A DNA stretch of 32,268 bases from Deltaproteobacteria bacterium RIFOXYD12_FULL_57_12 (GTDB lineage: Bacteria > Desulfobacterota > Desulfobulbia > Desulfobulbales > BM004), in the NCBI GenBank assembly GCA_001799275.1, contig MGTE01000059.1:5885-38152 (forward strand), read 5' to 3'. A program made the translations under genes and the position numbers. Of this stretch, positions 1 to 16,289 are shown in pieces. The notes beneath the pieces were generated by a model. That model was not told the DNA's origin. It did no database searches and saw only the letters and a program-made list of their open reading frames with translations. Numbering within the stretch: position 1 is the stretch's first letter; each line of letters starts with the position of its first letter.

Positions 1-257
1 CCGGCCGCATCAAGAACCTCGGGGTCAACAAGATAGGGATTGGCCTCGACGCCCGGCTGCTTGAGGAGAAAAATACCATTGTGGTCCGCCACCCATTTAC
101 GGGTCAACAGGATCTGTTTATGGAGCATGCGGGCCTGGAGGGCAGCCTGGGTAATAACCAGCTGCTGCTGAAAGGAGGAGGTTCGGTAAAAGGTGATCCC
201 GTAGGAAACGACAACCACCAGACCGACAAATATTAGAAACTTCGTCCTGAGCCGCAT
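1..257 (-). CDS. N-terminal part of a DUF3365-type membrane sensor (partial)
   Basis: Only the first 85 codons are in the window; the gene runs off the left edge. The reading begins MRLRTKFLIFVGLVVVVSYG, giving one hydrophobic membrane segment at about residues 6-20. It is followed by a stretch with ARMLHKQI, TRKWVADHNG and a later NPYLVDPE, which is the pattern of the DUF3365/Tll0287-like extracytoplasmic domain (RKW..xxNG then NPY). Proteins starting this way are usually sensor histidine kinases or related signalling proteins; the output domain is not visible, so kinase is inference. I chose the ATG at 257 because GGCAGG lies just upstream; an in-frame ATG at 281 is the alternative. The gene diverges from nrfHA, so it may sense nitrite or redox state for that operon. 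Confidence 0.75.
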   Translation of the reverse strand, partial: MRLRTKFLIFVGLVVVVSYGITFYRTSSFQQQLVITQAALQARMLHKQILLTRKWVADHNGIFLLKQPGVEANPYLVDPEVLDAA

Positions 258-427
258 GGGACACCTGCCGATGTCGAACATTCTCGCAGTCAGGCCGACC
301 GCGGTCCGCCACCGCTCCCGGAAACAACGCCTTGCCGGCCCGCTGCTCATTCTGTCTCCGTTGACATCGTGCAATTTCTGTTCCGCCCAGTTTTATCTAT
401 GCACAACCGCACACGACTGTCTGTTGT

Positions 428-493
428 GTAACCAACTGGTAACACCACGGTCAACCATACGTTACCAAAAAGTAACACCAAGGTAAACCATAA
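428..493. repeat. 33-bp imperfect tandem repeat upstream of nrfHA
   Basis: Two adjacent 33-base units (428-460 and 461-493) agree at 26 of 33 positions. Within them, 439-459 and 472-492 differ at only 2 of 21 positions. Each unit holds two GTAAC-like half sites separated by 6 bases (GTAAC/GTAAC in the first, GTTAC/GTAAC in the second). A degenerate third copy may start near 497. The period is close to three helical turns, and the block lies about 35-100 bases upstream of the -24/-12 element at 529-544. That is where enhancer sites for a sigma-54 activator are normally found. The regulatory role is inference. Confidence 0.65.
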
Positions 494-528
494 ACGGTTA
501 ACAAGCCGTAAATAAAGATAATTCAGCG

Positions 529-544
529 TGGCATCGAGCTTGCT
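529..544 (+). promoter_or_regulatory. Sigma-54 (-24/-12) promoter for nrfHA
   Basis: TGGCATC, four bases, then TTGCT matches the sigma-54 consensus TGGCACG-N4-TTGCW at all the key positions (GG at -24, GC at -12) with exact spacing. Transcription would start near 555, giving a leader of about 110 bases before nrfH. Tandem repeats just upstream would suit an enhancer-binding activator. Sigma-54-dependent control of nrfHA by the NrfS/NrfR two-component system is known in Desulfovibrio vulgaris, which makes the reading plausible here. Confidence 0.7.
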
Positions 545-665
545 ATCAATAACAGAAAGGGATGCCGCCGGGTTTCGCCCACAGAACCACTTGACGTTAT
601 GGCATCCCTTCCCCTGGAAGACGCAGAACGTGCATAATACAGGTTCCAACAGAGGAGGTGGGAGG

Positions 666-1127
666 ATGGGTGATAAGAAGAAAAGGATAGGCCTGTACGG
701 TCTTGCCGTGCTCGGCGCCGGGCTGGTTGTTGCCCTTTTCCTGCTGCTGGGCCCCCCAAAGCTGCTTGCCGAATCCGAGTCGCCGGTCTTCTGCGCCGGC
801 TGCCATGTGATGGAGGCGGAATATGAGGCATGGGACCATGCCGGGGCGCACCGGCGGATAAAATGCGTCGACTGCCATCTGCCCAATGAGGGCAGAGTTC
901 TACACTACACCTGGAAATCCATCGACGGCATGAAGGATGTCCTGGTGTTCTATTCAGGCAAGGTGCCCGAGCGGATCGCCATCACCAATCACGGCAAAGA
1001 AGTGGTCCAGGGCAACTGCATCAGATGCCATGAGACCACGGTGGGGCACATCGATCAGGAGCGTCTCTGCTGGGACTGTCACCGACGCATCGCCCACCGG
1101 CGGAGCGGCTCGATGCAGACACTATAA
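666..1127 (+). CDS. nrfH: NrfH, tetraheme cytochrome c quinol dehydrogenase subunit
   Basis: This 153-residue protein of the NapC/NirT/NrfH family takes electrons from menaquinol in the inner membrane and passes them to the periplasmic nitrite reductase NrfA. One N-terminal membrane anchor is seen at about residues 8-30. Four CxxCH heme motifs follow: CAGCH (43-47), CVDCH (67-71), CIRCH (118-122) and CWDCH (135-139), as expected for NrfH. The ATG at 666 is chosen because a long purine-rich ribosome site (GAGGAGG at about 652-658) sits just upstream; reading further upstream would add an unrelated N-terminus before the anchor. nrfA follows after 39 bases, so the two form an operon. Its likely promoter is the sigma-54 element at 529-544. 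Confidence 0.93.
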   Translation: MGDKKKRIGLYGLAVLGAGLVVALFLLLGPPKLLAESESPVFCAGCHVMEAEYEAWDHAGAHRRIKCVDCHLPNEGRVLHYTWKSIDGMKDVLVFYSGKVPERIAITNHGKEVVQGNCIRCHETTVGHIDQERLCWDCHRRIAHRRSGSMQTL

Positions 1128-1166
1128 TGAACGGCTGGAGCAAAACAGAGTGAAAGGAGGAGCGTC

Positions 1167-2651
1167 ATGAGAAACGGTTATGTTTGGTCCCTGGTCCTTA
1201 TCGCCTGCAGCGGTCTTTTTTTGCTTTCCGGCTGCCAGGCGCCCCAGAAAGCGGAGCCTGTCCGCCCGGTGAAGATTGCCGATGGCGAAGTCGATCCGGC
1301 GGAATGGGGCAAGGTCTATCCGGTCAACTACGATATGTGGAAACAAACCGCCGACCCAACCGCGGTCGGCAAGAGCAAGTATAAACGCGGCTTTGACGCC
1401 GACGGCATTACCTATGACAAGCTCTCGGAATTCCCCTATATGGCCCTGCTCTTCAACGGCTGGGGCTTTGGCGTCGAGTATAATGAACCGCGCGGCCATG
1501 CCTACATGCTCAAGGATCAGGTCATCATCGACTCCTCACGGGTGGGCGCCGGTGGCGTCTGTCTGACCTGCAAAACCCCCTATGCCCCCGCCCTTGAAAA
1601 AGAAAAAGGCCTGGTTTACTACAGCAGTTCGTGGGCCGAGGTCCGCGCCATGATCCCGGAAAAACACCAGGAACTGGGCGTGGCCTGTATCGACTGCCAC
1701 GACAACAAGGACATGACCCTGAAGCTCTCCCGCGAATTCACCCTGGGCAAGGCCCTGGCGGAATTGAAGGTCGACAGGAGTAAGGTGACCCATCAGGAGA
1801 TGCGCTCACTGGTCTGCGCCCAGTGCCACGTGACCTACAATATTAACAAGGACGAGAACAAGAAATCCGTGGGCGTCTATTTCCCGTGGCAGGGCAGCTC
1901 CTGGGGAAATATTCCGGTGGAGAACATCATCAAGCAGATCCGTGGCGACGAAACGGTCCGCGAGTGGACCCAGAAGGTGACCGGCTACCGGATGCCTTTC
2001 ATGCGTCATGCCGAATTCGAGTTGTTCTCGTTCAACAGCGTCCATTGGCAGGCCGGCGTCTCCTGCGTCGATTGCCATATGCCGTACACCAAGGTGGGCG
2101 CGGTCAAGGTTTCCGACCACCGGGTGATGAGCCCGCTCAAGAATGACATGAAGGCCTGCCAGCAGTGCCACACCGAAACGCCCGAATGGCTGCGCAACCA
2201 AGTCTTCGCGATCCAGGACCGGACAATATCAATGATGATCCGCTCCGGCTACGCCACCGCCACCGCGGCGAAACTCATCGAAAAGGCCCATCAACTGCGG
2301 GAGGCTGGCAAGGAAATCGACAACGGTCTTTATGAACAGGCCAAGGATTTCTACATGGAGGCATTCTTACGCACCCTGTACATCGGCGGCGAAAACTCAA
2401 CAGGATTCCACAACCCGACCGAGGCCATGCGGATTCTCGGCGACTCCACCGCCTTTGCCATGAAGGCCGAAGCACTCCTCCGGCAGGCCCTTACCAAGGC
2501 CGGCGAGAATGTGCCGATGGTCGTGGACCTCGAGCTGGATAACTACCTGAATGAGCGGGGCAAAAAGAAACTCATGACCCAACCGGGCGTGGAGATCGCG
2601 GACCCGTTCGGCGTCGAGGCCAAGCTGCGGCAGGTGCAACCCGCCAAATAG
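1167..2651 (+). CDS. nrfA: NrfA, ammonia-forming pentaheme cytochrome c nitrite reductase
   Basis: The 494-residue product catalyses six-electron reduction of nitrite to ammonium (ammonification, nitrite detoxification). The N-terminus has a lipoprotein signal with lipobox LSGC (Cys23), so the enzyme is probably tethered to a membrane. The active-site heme motif is the lysine-type CLTCK (132-136), which is diagnostic of NrfA. Four CxxCH motifs complete the five-heme set: CIDCH (174-178), CAQCH (217-221), CVDCH (300-304) and CQQCH (331-335). The start at 1167 has AAAGGAGG about 7 bases upstream. It is the second gene of nrfHA; in this arrangement NrfH is the electron donor. Length and motif order fit full-length NrfA. 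Confidence 0.95.
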   Translation: MRNGYVWSLVLIACSGLFLLSGCQAPQKAEPVRPVKIADGEVDPAEWGKVYPVNYDMWKQTADPTAVGKSKYKRGFDADGITYDKLSEFPYMALLFNGWGFGVEYNEPRGHAYMLKDQVIIDSSRVGAGGVCLTCKTPYAPALEKEKGLVYYSSSWAEVRAMIPEKHQELGVACIDCHDNKDMTLKLSREFTLGKALAELKVDRSKVTHQEMRSLVCAQCHVTYNINKDENKKSVGVYFPWQGSSWGNIPVENIIKQIRGDETVREWTQKVTGYRMPFMRHAEFELFSFNSVHWQAGVSCVDCHMPYTKVGAVKVSDHRVMSPLKNDMKACQQCHTETPEWLRNQVFAIQDRTISMMIRSGYATATAAKLIEKAHQLREAGKEIDNGLYEQAKDFYMEAFLRTLYIGGENSTGFHNPTEAMRILGDSTAFAMKAEALLRQALTKAGENVPMVVDLELDNYLNERGKKKLMTQPGVEIADPFGVEAKLRQVQPAK

Positions 2652-10185: not shown

Positions 10186-10261
10186 ACGCCCCTCAACTCC
10201 ACGCAGATACAGCCATCTGTCACAATTGGTTTACAATTTTCTTTTCAGGGGAGTATCACCT

Positions 10262-11395
10262 GTGTCCTACCCTGTCGCCCTCGCCCGCAAAAACCTGTTC
10301 CATGACCGGACCCGGTTTGCCATCACCTTGGTCGGCATTGCCTTTTCCGTGGTGTTGATCCTCGTGCAGGTCGGCGTCTATCTGGGCATGATGTACAACA
10401 CCTCCAGCATCATCGAACATACTGACGCGGATATCTGGATCACCTCCCGTAACAATCGGAACTTCGATTTTTCCATGCCTTTTCCCGAACACCGCGAGAA
10501 CCAGGCCCGGGCCGTGCCGGGTGTCGCCTGGACCAAAAAGCTGATCCTGGTCTGGTCGCTCATGAAAATCAAGGGTGGCGGCAGCGAGAACGTTGAGATG
10601 GTCGGATTCGACCCGGAAAGCGGCATCGGCGGCCCATGGGAAATGGTGCGGGGCAATGTCAGAGATGTAAAATTCCACCGGGGGGTGATCATCGATGAAT
10701 CGAGCATTGCCAAGCTGGGGGAGATGGATATCGGCGATTACCGGGAGGTGGTCAACAAGAAGGTACGGATTGTCGGAATCAGCCGCGGCGCTAGGCGGAT
10801 CACCACTGCCCCCGTCCTCTTCACCTCCTATCGGACTGCCCAGGAGCTGAATCCATGGATCGAGAGCCAGACCGTCTTTGTCCTGGTCAAGGTGGAGCCC
10901 GGCGCTGACGTACGCACGGTCCGCGACCGTCTCGAACAGGTAATGAACCTGGAGGACGTCTATACCCGGGATGAGTTCATCAGCGCAACCCGCCGCTACT
11001 GGACCTTCAGCACCGGCATGGGTATTGCCTTCGGCTTTACCATCCTGATGGGGATCATCGTCGGGGCGGTGATCGTCAGTCAAACAATCTACAGCGCCAC
11101 CATTGAGCACCTGCGGGAGTTCGGCACGTTAAAGGCCCTGGGCGCTGAGAACCGGATGGTTTACGGCATCATCCTTCAGCAGGCCCTGTTGAGCGGCATC
11201 ATCGGTTTTGCCATCGGCCTGGCTATCAACTTTGTGGTGGTCAGACTCTACAGCAACACCGGCCAGGTGATCATTCAACCCTGGCTGCTTTTTGCCGGCG
11301 ACATGGTGATTACCCTGGCCACCTGCATGGTTGCCTCGCTGATCTCGGTGCGCCGGGCCATGCAGGTTGATCCCATGGAGGTGTTCCGGGCGTGA
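10262..11395 (+). CDS. DevC-type FtsX-fold ABC exporter permease
   Basis: The 377-residue permease begins MSYPVALARKNLFHDRTRF with a first membrane helix at about residues 18-40. A large periplasmic domain (about 45-255) follows, then three C-terminal helices (about 265-290, 315-340, 350-370), ending VRRAMQVDPMEVFRA. This is the MacB/FtsX-like layout, and with the next two genes it resembles the DevCA-DevB exporters of cyanobacteria, which move lipids or small molecules through TolC. The GTG at 10262 is chosen because AGGGGAG lies 8 bases upstream and it fits the start of the first helix; longer reading to 10163 adds non-family residues. Its stop overlaps the next start by four bases. Substrate is unknown. 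Confidence 0.83.
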   Translation: MSYPVALARKNLFHDRTRFAITLVGIAFSVVLILVQVGVYLGMMYNTSSIIEHTDADIWITSRNNRNFDFSMPFPEHRENQARAVPGVAWTKKLILVWSLMKIKGGGSENVEMVGFDPESGIGGPWEMVRGNVRDVKFHRGVIIDESSIAKLGEMDIGDYREVVNKKVRIVGISRGARRITTAPVLFTSYRTAQELNPWIESQTVFVLVKVEPGADVRTVRDRLEQVMNLEDVYTRDEFISATRRYWTFSTGMGIAFGFTILMGIIVGAVIVSQTIYSATIEHLREFGTLKALGAENRMVYGIILQQALLSGIIGFAIGLAINFVVVRLYSNTGQVIIQPWLLFAGDMVITLATCMVASLISVRRAMQVDPMEVFRA

Positions 11396-12072
11396 GCGAA
11401 ACAACCGTCAACGTTACTGGTGTCTCCAAGATCTACGGCAGCCAGGCCCTGCCGATAACCGCGGTGCGGAACGCCACCTTTGCCTGTTGCGCCGGCACAG
11501 TGACCGCGATCATGGGGCCGTCCGGCAGCGGCAAGACCACCATCCTCTCCATCCTCGGCCTGCTGCTGAAGCCAAGCCAGGGCAGGGTGGCGATCATGGG
11601 TCGCGATGTCACGGACTTGGACGAACAGCGCCTGCCAGCCCTGCGACGGACCAGCATCGGCTTTATCTTCCAGTCGTTCAATCTTTTTTCGGCCTTGACC
11701 GTGCTGGAAAATGTCCTGCTTGCCCTGCAGCTCAAAAAGGTGCCGGGCAGAGAGGCAGCCAATCGCGCCATTGCGGCGCTCGAACGGGTGGAACTGGTCA
11801 AACGGTGCGGCTTTTATCCCCGCGATCTATCCGGCGGTGAAAAACAGCGGGTTTCCATTGCCCGCGCCATTGCGGCGGACGCCCCGATTATTCTGGCCGA
11901 TGAACCAACCGCCAATCTCGACTCGAAAACCGGCCTGCGGATCATCGATCTTTTATATGAACTTAGCGGCGAGCAAAACAAGACCGTGGTGGTGGTCAGC
12001 CACGATCTTCGCATTAAAGAGCATGTCAACCGGGTACTCTGGATGGAGGACGGCGTAATTCATGAAGACTAG
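11392..12072 (+). CDS. DevA/MacB-type ABC transporter ATP-binding protein
   Basis: The 226-residue ATPase has Walker A GPSGSGKTT (about 40-48), Q-loop in FIFQSFNLFSALTVLENV, the ABC signature LSGGEKQRVSIARAIA, Walker B IILADEPTANLD and a switch histidine in VVVSHD. The sequence belongs to the LolD/MacB/DevA group, which pairs with FtsX-fold permeases. Translation starts with GTG at 11392, overlapping the permease stop (GTGA), so the two are coupled. It also overlaps the membrane fusion gene by 11 bases. It powers the exporter encoded by the three genes. Confidence 0.92.
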   Translation: MSETTVNVTGVSKIYGSQALPITAVRNATFACCAGTVTAIMGPSGSGKTTILSILGLLLKPSQGRVAIMGRDVTDLDEQRLPALRRTSIGFIFQSFNLFSALTVLENVLLALQLKKVPGREAANRAIAALERVELVKRCGFYPRDLSGGEKQRVSIARAIAADAPIILADEPTANLDSKTGLRIIDLLYELSGEQNKTVVVVSHDLRIKEHVNRVLWMEDGVIHED

Positions 12073-13066
12073 ATATATCACGTTACTGGCCATGACCGGC
12101 CTGTTTCTTCTTTTCCCGCCAGATGGCTACCCTGCGGCCCCAGCGCCGCCGGCCACGAAGTCGGAAATCGTCGCGGTCTACGCCTACGGCATCGTGGAGG
12201 CGCGCCATCACTCCACCCTGAGCGCCAAGTTCCCGGGCAAGCTCGAAAAAAGCCTGGTGCAGGAAGGCGAAAAGGTCAAAAAAGGCCAACTGCTCGCCCA
12301 GTTCGAGGCCCGCGATCTGGAGGCCCAGAATAAAGTGGCGGCCACGGCGATCGAGATAGCCGCCGCCGCCCTGGCCGAGGCCGAGGCCGGCGCTCGACCG
12401 CAGGAGATTAAAGCGGCTGCCGAACAACTGGCTGAAGCGGATGCGCAACTGGCCAAGGCAAAAGCGGACTGGAAACGATACGAGCGGCTGCTTGCCGGCA
12501 AGGCCGTTGCCACCTCGGATTGGGAGCAGTACCGGCTCCGCCTCGACAGTGCCCAGGCCAATCGGAATGGTGCGCACCAGCGATTGCTGCTGCTTCAGGA
12601 AGGCACCCGGCCTGAGACGGTCGCGGTCTTGAAAAAACGGCTGCAATTGGCCAGGGCCGAGGCAGACCATAGCGCGGCCGTGCTGGACAACGCCCGGCTT
12701 ACTGCCCCCTACGACGGGGTGATCACCAGGAAGCACCGCGAAGAGGGCGAGGCCCTTGATATTGGCCAGCCGGTCATGGACATCGCCACCCTGGATGACC
12801 GCTACATCCGGGCGGAGATCGATGAGACCGATATCGGCCGGGTGCGGACGGGCCAGGCAGTGCAGATAACAGCCGACGGCTTTCCCGGACTGACCTTCGA
12901 GGGAAAGGTCATTGAGATCAAACAGCAGATGGGGCCGAAAAAACTTATCCCCACTGATCCCGCCAAGATCATCGACTACAAGGTCCTGGACCTGGAGGTC
13001 TCTTTGCCGCCAGACTGCCCCTTTCCCATCAAATTGCCGGTGAATGTTCACATTTCGCTCAAGTAA
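12062..13066 (+). CDS. DevB/HlyD-type periplasmic membrane fusion protein
   Basis: This 334-residue protein has an N-terminal signal or anchor (TLLAMTGLFLLFPPDGYPA), a biotinyl-lipoyl-like half (SAKFPGKLEKSLVQEGEKVKKGQLLAQFE), and an Ala/Glu-rich helical hairpin at about 95-210. The second lipoyl half is ARLTAPYDGVITRKHREEGEALDIGQPV. A beta-barrel part follows (RYIRAEIDETDIGRVRTGQAVQITADGFPG). It is the periplasmic adaptor of the exporter and would need an outer-membrane TolC partner, which is not in this window. The ATG at 12062 lies within the ATPase gene's last codons. Confidence 0.9.
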   Translation: MKTRYITLLAMTGLFLLFPPDGYPAAPAPPATKSEIVAVYAYGIVEARHHSTLSAKFPGKLEKSLVQEGEKVKKGQLLAQFEARDLEAQNKVAATAIEIAAAALAEAEAGARPQEIKAAAEQLAEADAQLAKAKADWKRYERLLAGKAVATSDWEQYRLRLDSAQANRNGAHQRLLLLQEGTRPETVAVLKKRLQLARAEADHSAAVLDNARLTAPYDGVITRKHREEGEALDIGQPVMDIATLDDRYIRAEIDETDIGRVRTGQAVQITADGFPGLTFEGKVIEIKQQMGPKKLIPTDPAKIIDYKVLDLEVSLPPDCPFPIKLPVNVHISLK

Positions 13067-13102
13067 GCAAAATCCCGGCCGCGCTGCCGGCAATTGATCC
13101 GC

Positions 13103-13131
13103 TTGACCCGTTCCGATTCGCCGGGTATTCT
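13103..13131 (+). promoter_or_regulatory. Candidate sigma-70 promoter for the PRPP-synthetase-like gene
   Basis: TTGACC (13103-13108) and TATTCT (13126-13131) are 17 bases apart. Transcription would start near 13138, about 70 bases before the ATG, so this gene can be expressed apart from the exporter. Confidence 0.45.
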
Positions 13132-13206
13132 CAACCCGCGGACAACTATTGCGCTCCGGACCGCGGCAGCGCACCCATATCAACTCTTTCCGCTGCTAAC
13201 GGACTT

Positions 13207-14133
13207 ATGAAGACAACCACCCGCGACAACATTGTCCTCGTTGCCAACGAGGACTCCGACGATCTGGCCCGCAAGGTGGCCGTTGCCATGGAGGTGCCCT
13301 ACACCGCCGTGCTCAGGAAACAGTTCCAGGATGGCGAGGTCTATCATGCCATCCCAGGCAAAATCGCCGGCCGCGATCTGGTCATCATCGGCAGCACCCA
13401 TGACGACCGCGCCCTGCAGGAGGTAATCGACCTCATCGACGGCTGCCACTACTGGCGGGCCGATTCAATCAACGTCATCATCCCCTACCATGGCTATTCA
13501 ACCATGGAACGGGCCAAGCCCGGCTCCGGCGAGATTCCCAAGGGCATCACCCGGACCAGACAGCTCTTCCGGGCCTGTCCGGACTTTGTCGGCTTCATCG
13601 ACCTGCACTCCGAGGCCATCCTCCATGCCCATGGGGGCAATATCCACACCAAGCACATCCAGACCGACCGTCTCATAATCGACAAGATCAGAGCCATGGG
13701 CAACGGTGATCTCGTGCTGGTCTCGCCCGATTACGGCCGCAGCAAATGGGTGGCCGGGCTGGCCAGCCGGCTGGCCATGCCGCATACCGCTGCCGACAAG
13801 GACCGGTTTGCCACGGACCGCACCCTGGTCCACCAGGTGTCCAGTGTGGTGCAGGACCGGATCGCCATTATCTGCGACGACATGATCCGCACCGGCGGCT
13901 CCATCATCCAGACCGCGGAGCGCTGCCGGCAGGCCGGCGCCCGGGATGTGATGATCATGGCCACCCATCTGGTGCTCTGCGGCAAGGCCAGGCAACAGAT
14001 CCAGGCGGCCGGCATCAAAAAAATCATCGGCGCTGATACCTATCCCGGCGTAGTGAGCGACGATCTGCTCGATGTCTACTCGGTGGCGCCGATGATCGCC
14101 GAGGAACTGATCAAGCAACTCCGGGTGGTCTGA
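13207..14133 (+). CDS. Divergent ribose-phosphate pyrophosphokinase (PRPP synthetase)-like protein
   Basis: The 308 residues align in layout with PRPP synthetase: an N-terminal Pribosyltran_N-like half (VLVANEDSDDLARKVAVAM..., FQDGEVYHAI) and a C-terminal phosphoribosyltransferase half with the PRPP loop IICDDMIRTGGSI. Several positions differ from the family: the usual RQDRK is replaced by STMERAK, the catalytic KRR loop by ADKDRFATD, and the second acidic residue of DDMIDTGGT by Arg. The DLHA..Q motif reads DLHSEAI. It may still bind PRPP or ribose 5-phosphate, but classical activity is doubtful; a paralogue with a regulatory or altered role is possible. It lies alone between the exporter operon and the riboswitch-kup unit. 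The start has no strong ribosome site. Confidence 0.75.
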   Translation: MKTTTRDNIVLVANEDSDDLARKVAVAMEVPYTAVLRKQFQDGEVYHAIPGKIAGRDLVIIGSTHDDRALQEVIDLIDGCHYWRADSINVIIPYHGYSTMERAKPGSGEIPKGITRTRQLFRACPDFVGFIDLHSEAILHAHGGNIHTKHIQTDRLIIDKIRAMGNGDLVLVSPDYGRSKWVAGLASRLAMPHTAADKDRFATDRTLVHQVSSVVQDRIAIICDDMIRTGGSIIQTAERCRQAGARDVMIMATHLVLCGKARQQIQAAGIKKIIGADTYPGVVSDDLLDVYSVAPMIAEELIKQLRVV

Positions 14134-14265
14134 AGCTGCCCGGCAAAAAAATCTTCCTGCTGATCGAAAAACGTAATATAGTGGCGGCAACCTGTCCGAC
14201 GCGGGATTTCGATATCCGGAAAACCGCGCCAGCAAAGAAGGGAAACCGAATCATCCGCATACAAT

Positions 14266-14404
14266 GTTGTAGCCGAAACGGCGCGCCCAAAACTGCGGCG
14301 CGACGTACGGGGGACCCAGAATCTGGGGCGCATTCCCGCAAGGGATAGGGTACTTCTCCTGCCCGAGCCCGTCAGCTAACCTCGTAGGCAATAAGGGAAG
14401 GGCA
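14266..14404 (+). promoter_or_regulatory. c-di-AMP riboswitch (ydaO/yuaA class) before kup
   Basis: The region carries the conserved blocks of the ydaO/yuaA RNA in order: GCCGAAAC (14272-14279), GGGGGACCC near 14309-14316, TGGGG at 14324-14328, a short hairpin TCCCGCAAGGGA, ATAGGG (14345-14350), CCCGAGCCC and GTCAGCTAACCTCGTAGGC (14371-14389), then AATAAGGGAAGGG. The first GCC and the last GGC close the main stem. This class binds cyclic di-AMP and usually lowers expression of potassium uptake and wall genes when the signal is high. The downstream gene is kup, the expected kind of target. Candidate -10 boxes are TATAGT (14177-14182) and TACAAT (14260-14265). Ends are approximate. Confidence 0.9.
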
Positions 14405-14414
14405 ACAGCACAAT

Positions 14415-14438
14415 AAACGCCAAGCGCCCGCGTTTTTT
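14415..14438 (+). terminator. Candidate expression-platform terminator of the riboswitch
   Basis: AAACGC (14415-14420) pairs with GCGTTT (14430-14435) across a nine-base loop, and six T residues end at 14438. It lies between the aptamer and the kup start, so ligand-dependent termination is likely. The stem is short, and competing pairings with the aptamer's closing stem were not folded. Confidence 0.5.
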
Positions 14439-14471
14439 GTTCCACGCTGCCCGTTGAGGAACAATACTGCA

Positions 14472-16289
14472 ATGTCCGGTCGCGATGAAGCACCGGCCAA
14501 AGGCATCATCAATGCCTTTGGACTGGTATTTGGTGATATCGGCACAAGCCCCATCTACACTCTTTCTGTCATCTTCCTGGTTCTGCCGCCGGAACGCACC
14601 AACGTCATCGGCGTTCTCTCCTGCATTATCTGGACCCTGATCCTCCTGGTGACCGTGGAGTACAGCTGGCTGGCCATGAGCCTCGGCCGGCGCGGCGAAG
14701 GCGGAACCATCGTGCTGCAAGAGACCCTGCTGCCGTTGCTCTCCTCCGGCCGCCAGGCAGCCTTTGTGACCATCCTCACCTATCTGGGCATTTCGCTGCT
14801 GGCAGGCGACGGAGTAATCACTCCGGCCATCAGTATTCTCTCGGCCGTTGAGGGGATTCTCCTGATTCCTGGTTGCGAACGGACGCCTAATTGGATTCTG
14901 GTGGGCACGGCCATTATCATCGCGGCTTTACTCTTTGCGTGGCAAAAAAAAGGCACCGACCGAGTGGCCGGTTTTTTTGGTCCCCTCATGGTGGTCTGGT
15001 TCGTGGTGCTGTCGATCTCTGGACTTGCGGCACTCTGGACTTTCCCCTCGGTACTTGCCGCCTTCTCGCCGCTCTATGCCATCAATTTTCTGGGCCACCA
15101 CGGCGTGGCCGGATTTTTTCTGCTTTCCGAGGTCACCCTCTGCGCCACCGGCGGCGAGGCCCTTTACGCCGACATGGGCCACCTCGGCCGCAGTCCCATC
15201 CGCCGGGCCTGGGCGCTGGTGATGCCGGCGCTCATCCTCTGTTACCTCGGCCAGGGTGCCTTCATCATCCTACACCCGGAGAACCGAAACATTCTCTTTG
15301 CCATGCTCCGCGACCAGGCACCGCTGCTCTACGTCCCCTTTCTGCTCCTGAGCCTGATCGCCACCATCATCGCCTCCCAGGCCATGATCAGCGGCATGTT
15401 CTCCATCGTTTACCAGGGGATTATGGCCCGCATCCTTCCCCTGCTTAAAGTCGACTTCACCTCCAAGGAGGTACGCTCCCAGATCTATATCGACGCGGTC
15501 AACTGGCTGCTGTTCGCGGCGGTCGTCATCGTCATGCTCTCCTTTGGCGAGTCCAGTCGGCTGGCTGCCGCCTACGGGCTGGCGGTAACCGGTACCATGA
15601 CGCTTACCGGCATCATGATGACCTGGATCTTCTCCCTGCGAAAACAACATGGCAAGGCCTGCCTCGCCCTGCTCGTCACCCTGGTCGACATGGTGTATCT
15701 TGGCGCCAACACCCTGAAAATCCCCCACGGCGGCTACTGGTCGCTGCTGGTGGCCGCCATTCCACTCGGCTGCATCCTGCTCTACACCAGAGGCCAGAAG
15801 CGCCTCTATAAGACCATGGCCTTCATGGACCTTGAGCCATTTCTCAAGGAATACCACAGCCACTATCGGAAAAAAAACCGCATCCAGGGCTCGGCCCTCT
15901 ATTTTACCCGCGACATCCGCCGGGTGCCGCCCTTCATGGTGCAGACCATGCTGATCAACCACATCCTGTACGACGACAACATTGTCGTCTCCATTACCCG
16001 CCTTGATGAACCTTACGGCGCAGCCGGCTCTTTCCGGGAATGTTACGATAACGGGCTCCGCCTCTTCGAGATCCGGCTCGGCTACATGCAGGTGGCGGAC
16101 ATTCCCGCGATCCTCAAGAAGGCGGGCATCCATGCGCGGACCATATTCTACGGCGTCGAGGAAATCATTACCACCAACCCCCTGTGGCGTCTGTTTGCCG
16201 CTCTCAAACGTCTCACCCCGACCTATGTCCAGTTCTACAATTTGCCCGCCGACCGCCTGCACGGGGTAATGACGCGGGTCCGCATGTAG
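14472..16289 (+). CDS. kup: Kup, potassium uptake permease
   Basis: The 605-residue protein is a KUP/HAK/KT-type potassium symporter. The family signature GLVFGDIGTSPIYTL is at about residues 16-30, and about twelve hydrophobic segments fill the first 460 residues (for example LLAGDGVITPAISILSAVEGI and GEALYADMGHLGRSPIRRAW). A soluble C-terminal domain follows. It brings K+ into the cytoplasm, probably with protons. ATG 14472 is chosen: GAGGA lies 11 bases upstream and this start fits the family; a TTG at 14454 is the alternative. Expression is likely controlled by the c-di-AMP riboswitch. The DedA gene follows after 41 bases. Confidence 0.94.
   Translation: MSGRDEAPAKGIINAFGLVFGDIGTSPIYTLSVIFLVLPPERTNVIGVLSCIIWTLILLVTVEYSWLAMSLGRRGEGGTIVLQETLLPLLSSGRQAAFVTILTYLGISLLAGDGVITPAISILSAVEGILLIPGCERTPNWILVGTAIIIAALLFAWQKKGTDRVAGFFGPLMVVWFVVLSISGLAALWTFPSVLAAFSPLYAINFLGHHGVAGFFLLSEVTLCATGGEALYADMGHLGRSPIRRAWALVMPALILCYLGQGAFIILHPENRNILFAMLRDQAPLLYVPFLLLSLIATIIASQAMISGMFSIVYQGIMARILPLLKVDFTSKEVRSQIYIDAVNWLLFAAVVIVMLSFGESSRLAAAYGLAVTGTMTLTGIMMTWIFSLRKQHGKACLALLVTLVDMVYLGANTLKIPHGGYWSLLVAAIPLGCILLYTRGQKRLYKTMAFMDLEPFLKEYHSHYRKKNRIQGSALYFTRDIRRVPPFMVQTMLINHILYDDNIVVSITRLDEPYGAAGSFRECYDNGLRLFEIRLGYMQVADIPAILKKAGIHARTIFYGVEEIITTNPLWRLFAALKRLTPTYVQFYNLPADRLHGVMTRVRM

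Follow-up and report, generated by a model that had tools for sequence, protein, structure and literature searches.

Organization of the nrfHA promoter region

The window analysed here is a 32,268-nucleotide stretch of contig MGTE01000059.1 from a Desulfobulbales draft genome. Near its beginning, an nrfHA operon on the plus strand faces away from a sensor kinase gene on the minus strand. The features that bear on the control of nrfHA are listed below; the regulator gene that follows the kinase gene is given in the coordinates of the neighbourhood record L003.

1..257, minus strand: 5′ end of a divergent sensor kinase gene (nrfS-like), which runs beyond the window
428..443, no strand: distal 16-bp dyad, GTAACC-AACT-GGTAAC, predicted site of a regulator dimer
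461..476, no strand: proximal 16-bp dyad, GTTACC-AAAA-AGTAAC, 33 bp from the distal one
529..544, plus strand: sigma-54 −24/−12 element, TGGCATCGAGCTTGCT
558..609, plus strand: inverted repeat in the 5′ leader of nrfH, 10-bp stem 558–567/600–609
666..1127, plus strand: nrfH, cytochrome c nitrite reductase small subunit (TIGR03153, over cut-off)
1167..2651, plus strand: nrfA, nitrite reductase of the cytochrome c552 family, CxxCK haem site present (PF02335 over cut-off, E 1.4e-149)
L003:3235-4581, minus strand: NtrC-family regulator gene, after the kinase gene (PF00072, PF00158, PF02954)

The frame of the kinase gene is open to position 374; its start is most likely at 257, which gives 408 bp between the divergent operons (258–665). 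The regulator, P0001, combines a receiver, a sigma-54 interaction AAA+ domain containing the GAFTGA loop and a Fis-type helix-turn-helix, the composition of the NtrC family. Its neighbour is a Tll0287 (c-heme Cache) histidine kinase, the sequence of which is partly masked in this genome. Past a pseudouridine synthase gene adjoining the regulator lies a PAS-rich hybrid-type histidine kinase (L003:74-2113, minus strand) with a receiver cut short at 48 of 111 profile positions. NrfA of the window scores under the cut-offs of both NCBIfam models for ammonia-forming NrfA (195 of 595 bits and 141 of 692.5), and we therefore place it in a diverged NrfA class. Proteins 77% identical to it are encoded on two contigs labelled Nitrospirota or Nitrospirae (L038 and L042), through either transfer or misbinning.

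A preliminary description of this DNA had placed a sigma-54 element at exact spacing upstream of nrfH. The pattern TGGCAY-N5-TTGCW indeed has a single match within the window, TGGCATCGAGCTTGCT at 529–544 (chance 0.11), and the genome carries a sigma-54 gene (PF04552). From the position of the −12 element, transcription of nrfH is predicted to start at ∼555. The inverted repeat at 558–609 lies just after this position; taken over its full length, the 5′ leader is no more stably folded than shuffled sequences (z −0.17).

Two adjacent 33-mers beginning at 428 are identical at 26 of 33 positions. When the 300-bp region was shuffled 300 times with dinucleotides preserved, no shuffle reached this value at period 33, nor the equivalent fraction at periods of 25 to 44. 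Tandem Repeats Finder yielded no row for window positions 1–1200. The repeat described earlier is real and its units do contain two GTAAC-like half-sites each; its reading as a 33-bp tandem unit did not hold, and is replaced by a 16-bp inverted dyad used twice. Each dyad deviates from GTTACC-N4-GGTAAC at one position, and the two are approximately three helical turns apart. Within the 32-kb window, GTWACYNNNNRGTAAC occurs in two places, both of them the dyads at 428–443 and 461–476 (expected 0.00), and the strict pair pattern has one match in the 3.84-Mb draft assembly, at the nrfHA promoter. The −24 element starts at base 53 past the proximal dyad. With dyads roughly 80–150 bp upstream of the predicted start, the region has the layout of a sigma-54 promoter with upstream activator sites. 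A plasmid search using the promoter gave no match.

Single dyads behaved differently from the pair. At three mismatches the window contained 8 matches against 6.81 expected, which is no commoner than chance, and at two mismatches the whole genome contained 62, fewer than the reversed control (128). As neither scan did better than its control, we treat the pair as evidence and a single degenerate dyad as none.

The linkers that follow the two dyads (window 444–512) are alike and read ACACCA-GGT-AACCATA, which gives an 11-bp rhythm of GGT/ACC words. This rhythm is absent from seven other aligned promoters and possibly stems from local duplication or from weak extra half-sites. When the eight promoters were compared by eye, the two linkers resembled each other in the window alone, which argues for the 16-bp dyad and not the 33-bp unit as the functional unit. 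An OmpR-type 11-bp-phased direct repeat, suggested by the spacing of the GTAAC words, was considered and dropped, because the dyads at locus G019 are perfect with dissimilar linkers and the neighbouring regulator is of the NtrC type.

The dyad pair and the sigma-54 element in regulator neighbourhoods

Homologues of the regulator (E ≤ 1e-145) were present in 103 of 257 Desulfobulbales genomes, the window's own included, and the others were 55–81% identical to it. The regulator-selected set comprised 42 loci, namely 40 fetched neighbourhoods, mostly of the best-scoring homologues, together with L003 and L024. With no more than one mismatch allowed, these loci contained 65 dyads, whereas the control with reversed letters gave 3. 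A pair with up to two mismatches in each dyad was found in 30 of the 42 loci (control, 0/42) and a pair with one mismatch in each in 17; the remaining 12 had no pair at two mismatches each. Dyad-to-dyad distances of up to 200 bp fell at 32–34 in 20 of 21 cases. Evidence for the spacing was drawn from these 42 loci only, because the other 40 of the 82 loci had been chosen by a fixed-spacing pattern. A kinase homologue was present in each of the 40 loci assessed, a count that excludes two duplicates of other records.

Three further promoters were compared from loci first found with two-component genes beside nrfHA. In G019, where an extra open frame lies between the divergent operons, two perfect dyads 32 bp apart accompany the TGGCA/TTGCT element TGGCATCCGGCTTGCT. 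The pair in L041 is weaker, and L029 has a good −24/−12 element without the pair.

The distance between the pair and the sigma-54 element was determined for 67 pairs (summed mismatches of at most three) from 61 of the 82 loci. In 49 of them a −24/−12 element was located 49–54 bases from the dyad edge, and no other 5-base bin held more than 4. The other 18 pairs had none in this interval; some have one elsewhere, at offset 38 in L166 and at about 120 in L156, L157, L223 and L244. The sites and the −24/−12 element recur in relatives that carry the regulator. Such conservation was the sequence check put forward in the preliminary description, and the lack of it that would have spoken against the proposal was not seen. 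Comparative data thus support the predicted nrfHA promoter of the sigma-54 type with upstream activator sites.

Distribution across the order and the phylum

The strict dyad pair was found in 84 of the 257 Desulfobulbales genomes, versus one for the reversed control. A phylum-wide draw of 395 genomes, which included 16 of the order, gave a match to the pair in the window's genome only, and the control matched three; none of the 379 genomes outside the order and none of the 15 other genomes of the order within this draw contained the strict pair.

Within the order, the pair was present in 68 of 103 regulator-positive but only 16 of 154 regulator-negative genomes. Stratified by family, the association gave a p value of 2.6e-18, which is indicative only because genomes are non-independent samples, and it came mainly from families f11 and f12; the window's own family, f1, showed none (counts 3, 6, 1, 2). 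Thirty-five regulator-positive genomes lacked the strict pair and 16 pair-positive genomes lacked the regulator at the E cut-off, some of these assemblies being incomplete.

Recognition helix of the regulator and sensor domain of the kinase

All 40 regulators examined from the order carry the helix motif RK[NS]LW, and 23 of them the full string LGISRKNLWEKMK. The GAFTGA loop is exact in 35 of the 40 and reads GSFTGA in three; no such loop was found in the remaining two. Outside the order, locus L054 (Desulfuromonadaceae by record) contains a degenerate GTTACC-type pair with 2 and 1 mismatches upstream of nrfHA (L054:7200-7320), next to a regulator that is only 44% identical yet has the helix GISRKNLWEKM. 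The genome itself has no match to the strict pair pattern. This one case suggests that the regulator helix reads GTTACC. With a diverged regulator and the same recognition helix, L054 represents a natural test of helix–operator pairing.

All 36 full-length kinases contain the PF11845 (Tll0287) domain and a CxxCH motif, whose two cysteines and histidine do not vary. The fusion of this domain to HisKA/HATPase modules identifies them as sCache_heme (Tll0287) kinases, and they share with other sCache_heme (Tll0287/DUF3365) sensors a c-heme Cache domain joined to a signalling module. According to a 2026 preprint, a signalling-associated Tll0287-family domain of P. azotoformans releases bound NO slowly and does not form a stable complex with O2 (PMC12889525); the main text contains no match for nitrite, nrf, response regulator or operon. 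By analogy with the same sensor domain in another organism, NO may be the signal here as well.

Predicted targets of the dyad pair

A second set of 40 loci was selected by motif, from at least 75 pairs of the order-wide scan, and comprised regions that were not already among the regulator neighbourhoods. An nrf, nap or octahaem-like gene was present in 33 of these loci, 6 of the 40 also having a two-component-system gene. Arbitrary 10-kb loci, 20 in all and taken from eight of the genomes, gave none at the same thresholds, the nearest miss being a NapA-like protein with 280 bits against a threshold of 300. The label octahaem was assigned by resemblance, without a haem count. Seven motif-selected loci had no respiratory gene (L226, L231, L232, L239, L242, L246 and L260), several of them being short contig ends.

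Profile searches identified NapA over the NCBI cut-off in L166 and L244, NapA-like proteins below it in L180 and L157, NrfH with an E. coli-class NrfA over the cut-off in L185, and PF13447 multihaem cytochromes in L158, L161 and L259. In L251 the pair lies upstream of an operon (10228-14606) that encodes, by profile, a c3-like cytochrome, an Fe-S protein, an NrfD-family subunit and a PF13447 multihaem cytochrome of ∼530 residues. Operons with similar gene sizes are seen in L252, L237, L240, L250, L227–L229 and L241, profiles having been applied to L251 alone. Possibly, the L251-type operon encodes an uncharacterised nitrogen-oxide respiration complex. Among 79 named nrfHA loci, 74 had a detected nrfH and a long enough upstream region; the pair was present in five (L030, L033, L039, L041 and L054).

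A proposed sigma-54 switch for nrfHA

Four lines of evidence bear on the function of the repeats: the twin dyads, the favoured distance of the −24/−12 element on the side of the operon, the co-distribution with a regulator of conserved helix, and the neighbouring kinase with its Tll0287 domain and CxxCH motif. Together they argue that the repeats serve the divergently encoded two-component system as upstream activator sites, this system being a switch that would drive nrfHA here and nap, nrf and octahaem-like operons in relatives. We regard this reading, which is based on sequence comparison, as very probably correct. Most likely, an order-wide sigma-54 regulon for the respiration of nitrate and nitrite to ammonium has the dyad pair as its operator. 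No paper on this operator and regulon stood among the matches listed by a literature search that covered sources other than subscription journals and supplements.

In the proposed mechanism, NO or another nitrogen oxide derived from nitrite or nitrate would bind the periplasmic c-heme of the kinase, which would then phosphorylate the NtrC-family regulator. Dimers of the regulator would occupy both dyads, at about −86 and −119, and oligomerise, and the oligomer would make sigma-54 polymerase form the open complex on nrfHA. Relatives would use this switch for nap, nrf and octahaem-like cytochrome operons.

Comparison with known systems and alternative explanations

The system may simply be that of Desulfovibrio, with an orthologue of DVU0621 and an operator whose letters have drifted. 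Sigma-54-dependent nitrite control of nrfHA in Desulfovibrio, mentioned in the preliminary description, is indeed on record for NrfSR (passages of PMC3333781, PMC5701242, PMC6456213, PMC12285233 and PMC4641369). The layout of kinase and regulator beside nrfHA is the same, and Desulfovibrio vulgaris NrfS–NrfR shares sigma-54 two-component activation, an operator of equal length (16 bp; PMC6456213) and NrfR-like sites upstream of nap (PMC5701242), as far as excerpts of these papers show. The operator letters differ, however. The window has GTWACC-N4-RGTAAC where the published type is GTCCGC...AGAC, as judged via LurR sites and not the NrfR logo; LurR sites, which are also bound by NrfR, read like GTCCGCTTTTCAAGAC (PMC6456213). 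The GTTACC dyad at one mismatch is absent from all 13 Desulfovibrio-named nrfHA upstream regions, and an approximation of the published site was seen in just 3 of the 13 and in 1 of 61 others, which makes for a weak comparison. In addition, in each of three Desulfovibrio-type genomes the regulator with the best E-value is 45–46% identical, and the targets predicted here include octahaem-like cytochrome operons. We therefore consider a true Desulfovibrio-type NrfSR unlikely; by architecture this is an NtrC-type two-component system on a sigma-54 promoter, which would work like NrfSR with a different operator, in line with the earlier suspicion of a distinct binding site. LurSR of the Desulfovibrio lactate operon is likewise described, in excerpts of PMC6456213, as a system whose sigma-54-dependent response regulator has three 16-bp sites preceding a sigma-54 promoter, but it serves lactate genes and not nitrogen-oxide genes. 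The tandem dyads are also reminiscent of NorR/norVW, a sigma-54 activator with tandem inverted repeats and a response to NO (passages of PMC1274295).

A different DNA-binding protein might occupy the dyads, the two-component system being merely linked to them; the FNR-family regulator HcpR would be an example. NorR is a single-component regulator with three sites of core GT-N7-AC, and HcpR2 is not known to be a sigma-54 regulator. The absence of a regulator passing the cut-off from 16 of the 84 genomes with the pair would fit binding by another protein, as would the prediction, in passages of PMC1274295, that HcpR controls nrfHA in Desulfuromonas and Geobacter. The palindrome given there for HcpR2, a regulator of nitrogen-oxide stress, has similar letters (GTAACnnnnGTTAC), but its half-sites stand in reverse order with N4, as opposed to GTTAC-N6-GTAAC. 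At one mismatch it occurs within 150 bp of none of the 67 pair promoters, and at two it is absent from window positions 258–665. The delta-proteobacterial HcpR motif, TTGACnnnnGTCAA, is matched in the window at two mismatches only (at 361), so that neither motif has a match at one mismatch in 258–665; at one mismatch it lies within 150 bp of the pair in 9 of the 67 promoters, a count made without a shuffle control, and HcpR may additionally act on some pair promoters. The layout, in which twin dyads precede −24/−12 at a favoured distance, is that of sigma-54 activators, the association with the regulator persists across families, and in L054 the pair outside the order adjoins the 44%-identical regulator with the helix GISRKNLWEKM; binding by another protein is accordingly quite improbable. 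Functionless tandem duplication, by chance or mutation, could have left the two similar linkers of the window genome, but the recurrence across the order, the favoured spacing and the dissimilar linkers elsewhere leave it a negligible chance, conservation already contradicting it.

Implications for nitrogen-oxide respiration in Desulfobulbales

Beyond the activator-site reading, we tentatively propose, at slightly less than even confidence, an order-wide Desulfobulbales regulon under a kinase that senses NO through a c-heme and an NtrC-type regulator whose helix is close to LGISRKNLWEKMK, the twin GTTACC-N4-GGTAAC dyads being the sites that they read. The two proteins would switch on the nitrate/nitrite-to-ammonium branch, comprising NapA types, two NrfA classes and HAO/OTR-like multihaem cytochromes with NrfC/NrfD-like partners, and NO leaking from nitrite reduction would be the common signal.

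With the dyad pair as a strict DNA signature, an order of sulfur-cycling bacteria can be searched for control of the reduction of nitrate and nitrite to ammonium, and certain Tll0287/sCache_heme kinases gain a concrete set of predicted targets. Whether NO or nitrite itself is the signal becomes directly testable, and through their promoters uncharacterised multihaem-cytochrome and NapA-like operons become assignable to nitrogen-oxide respiration.
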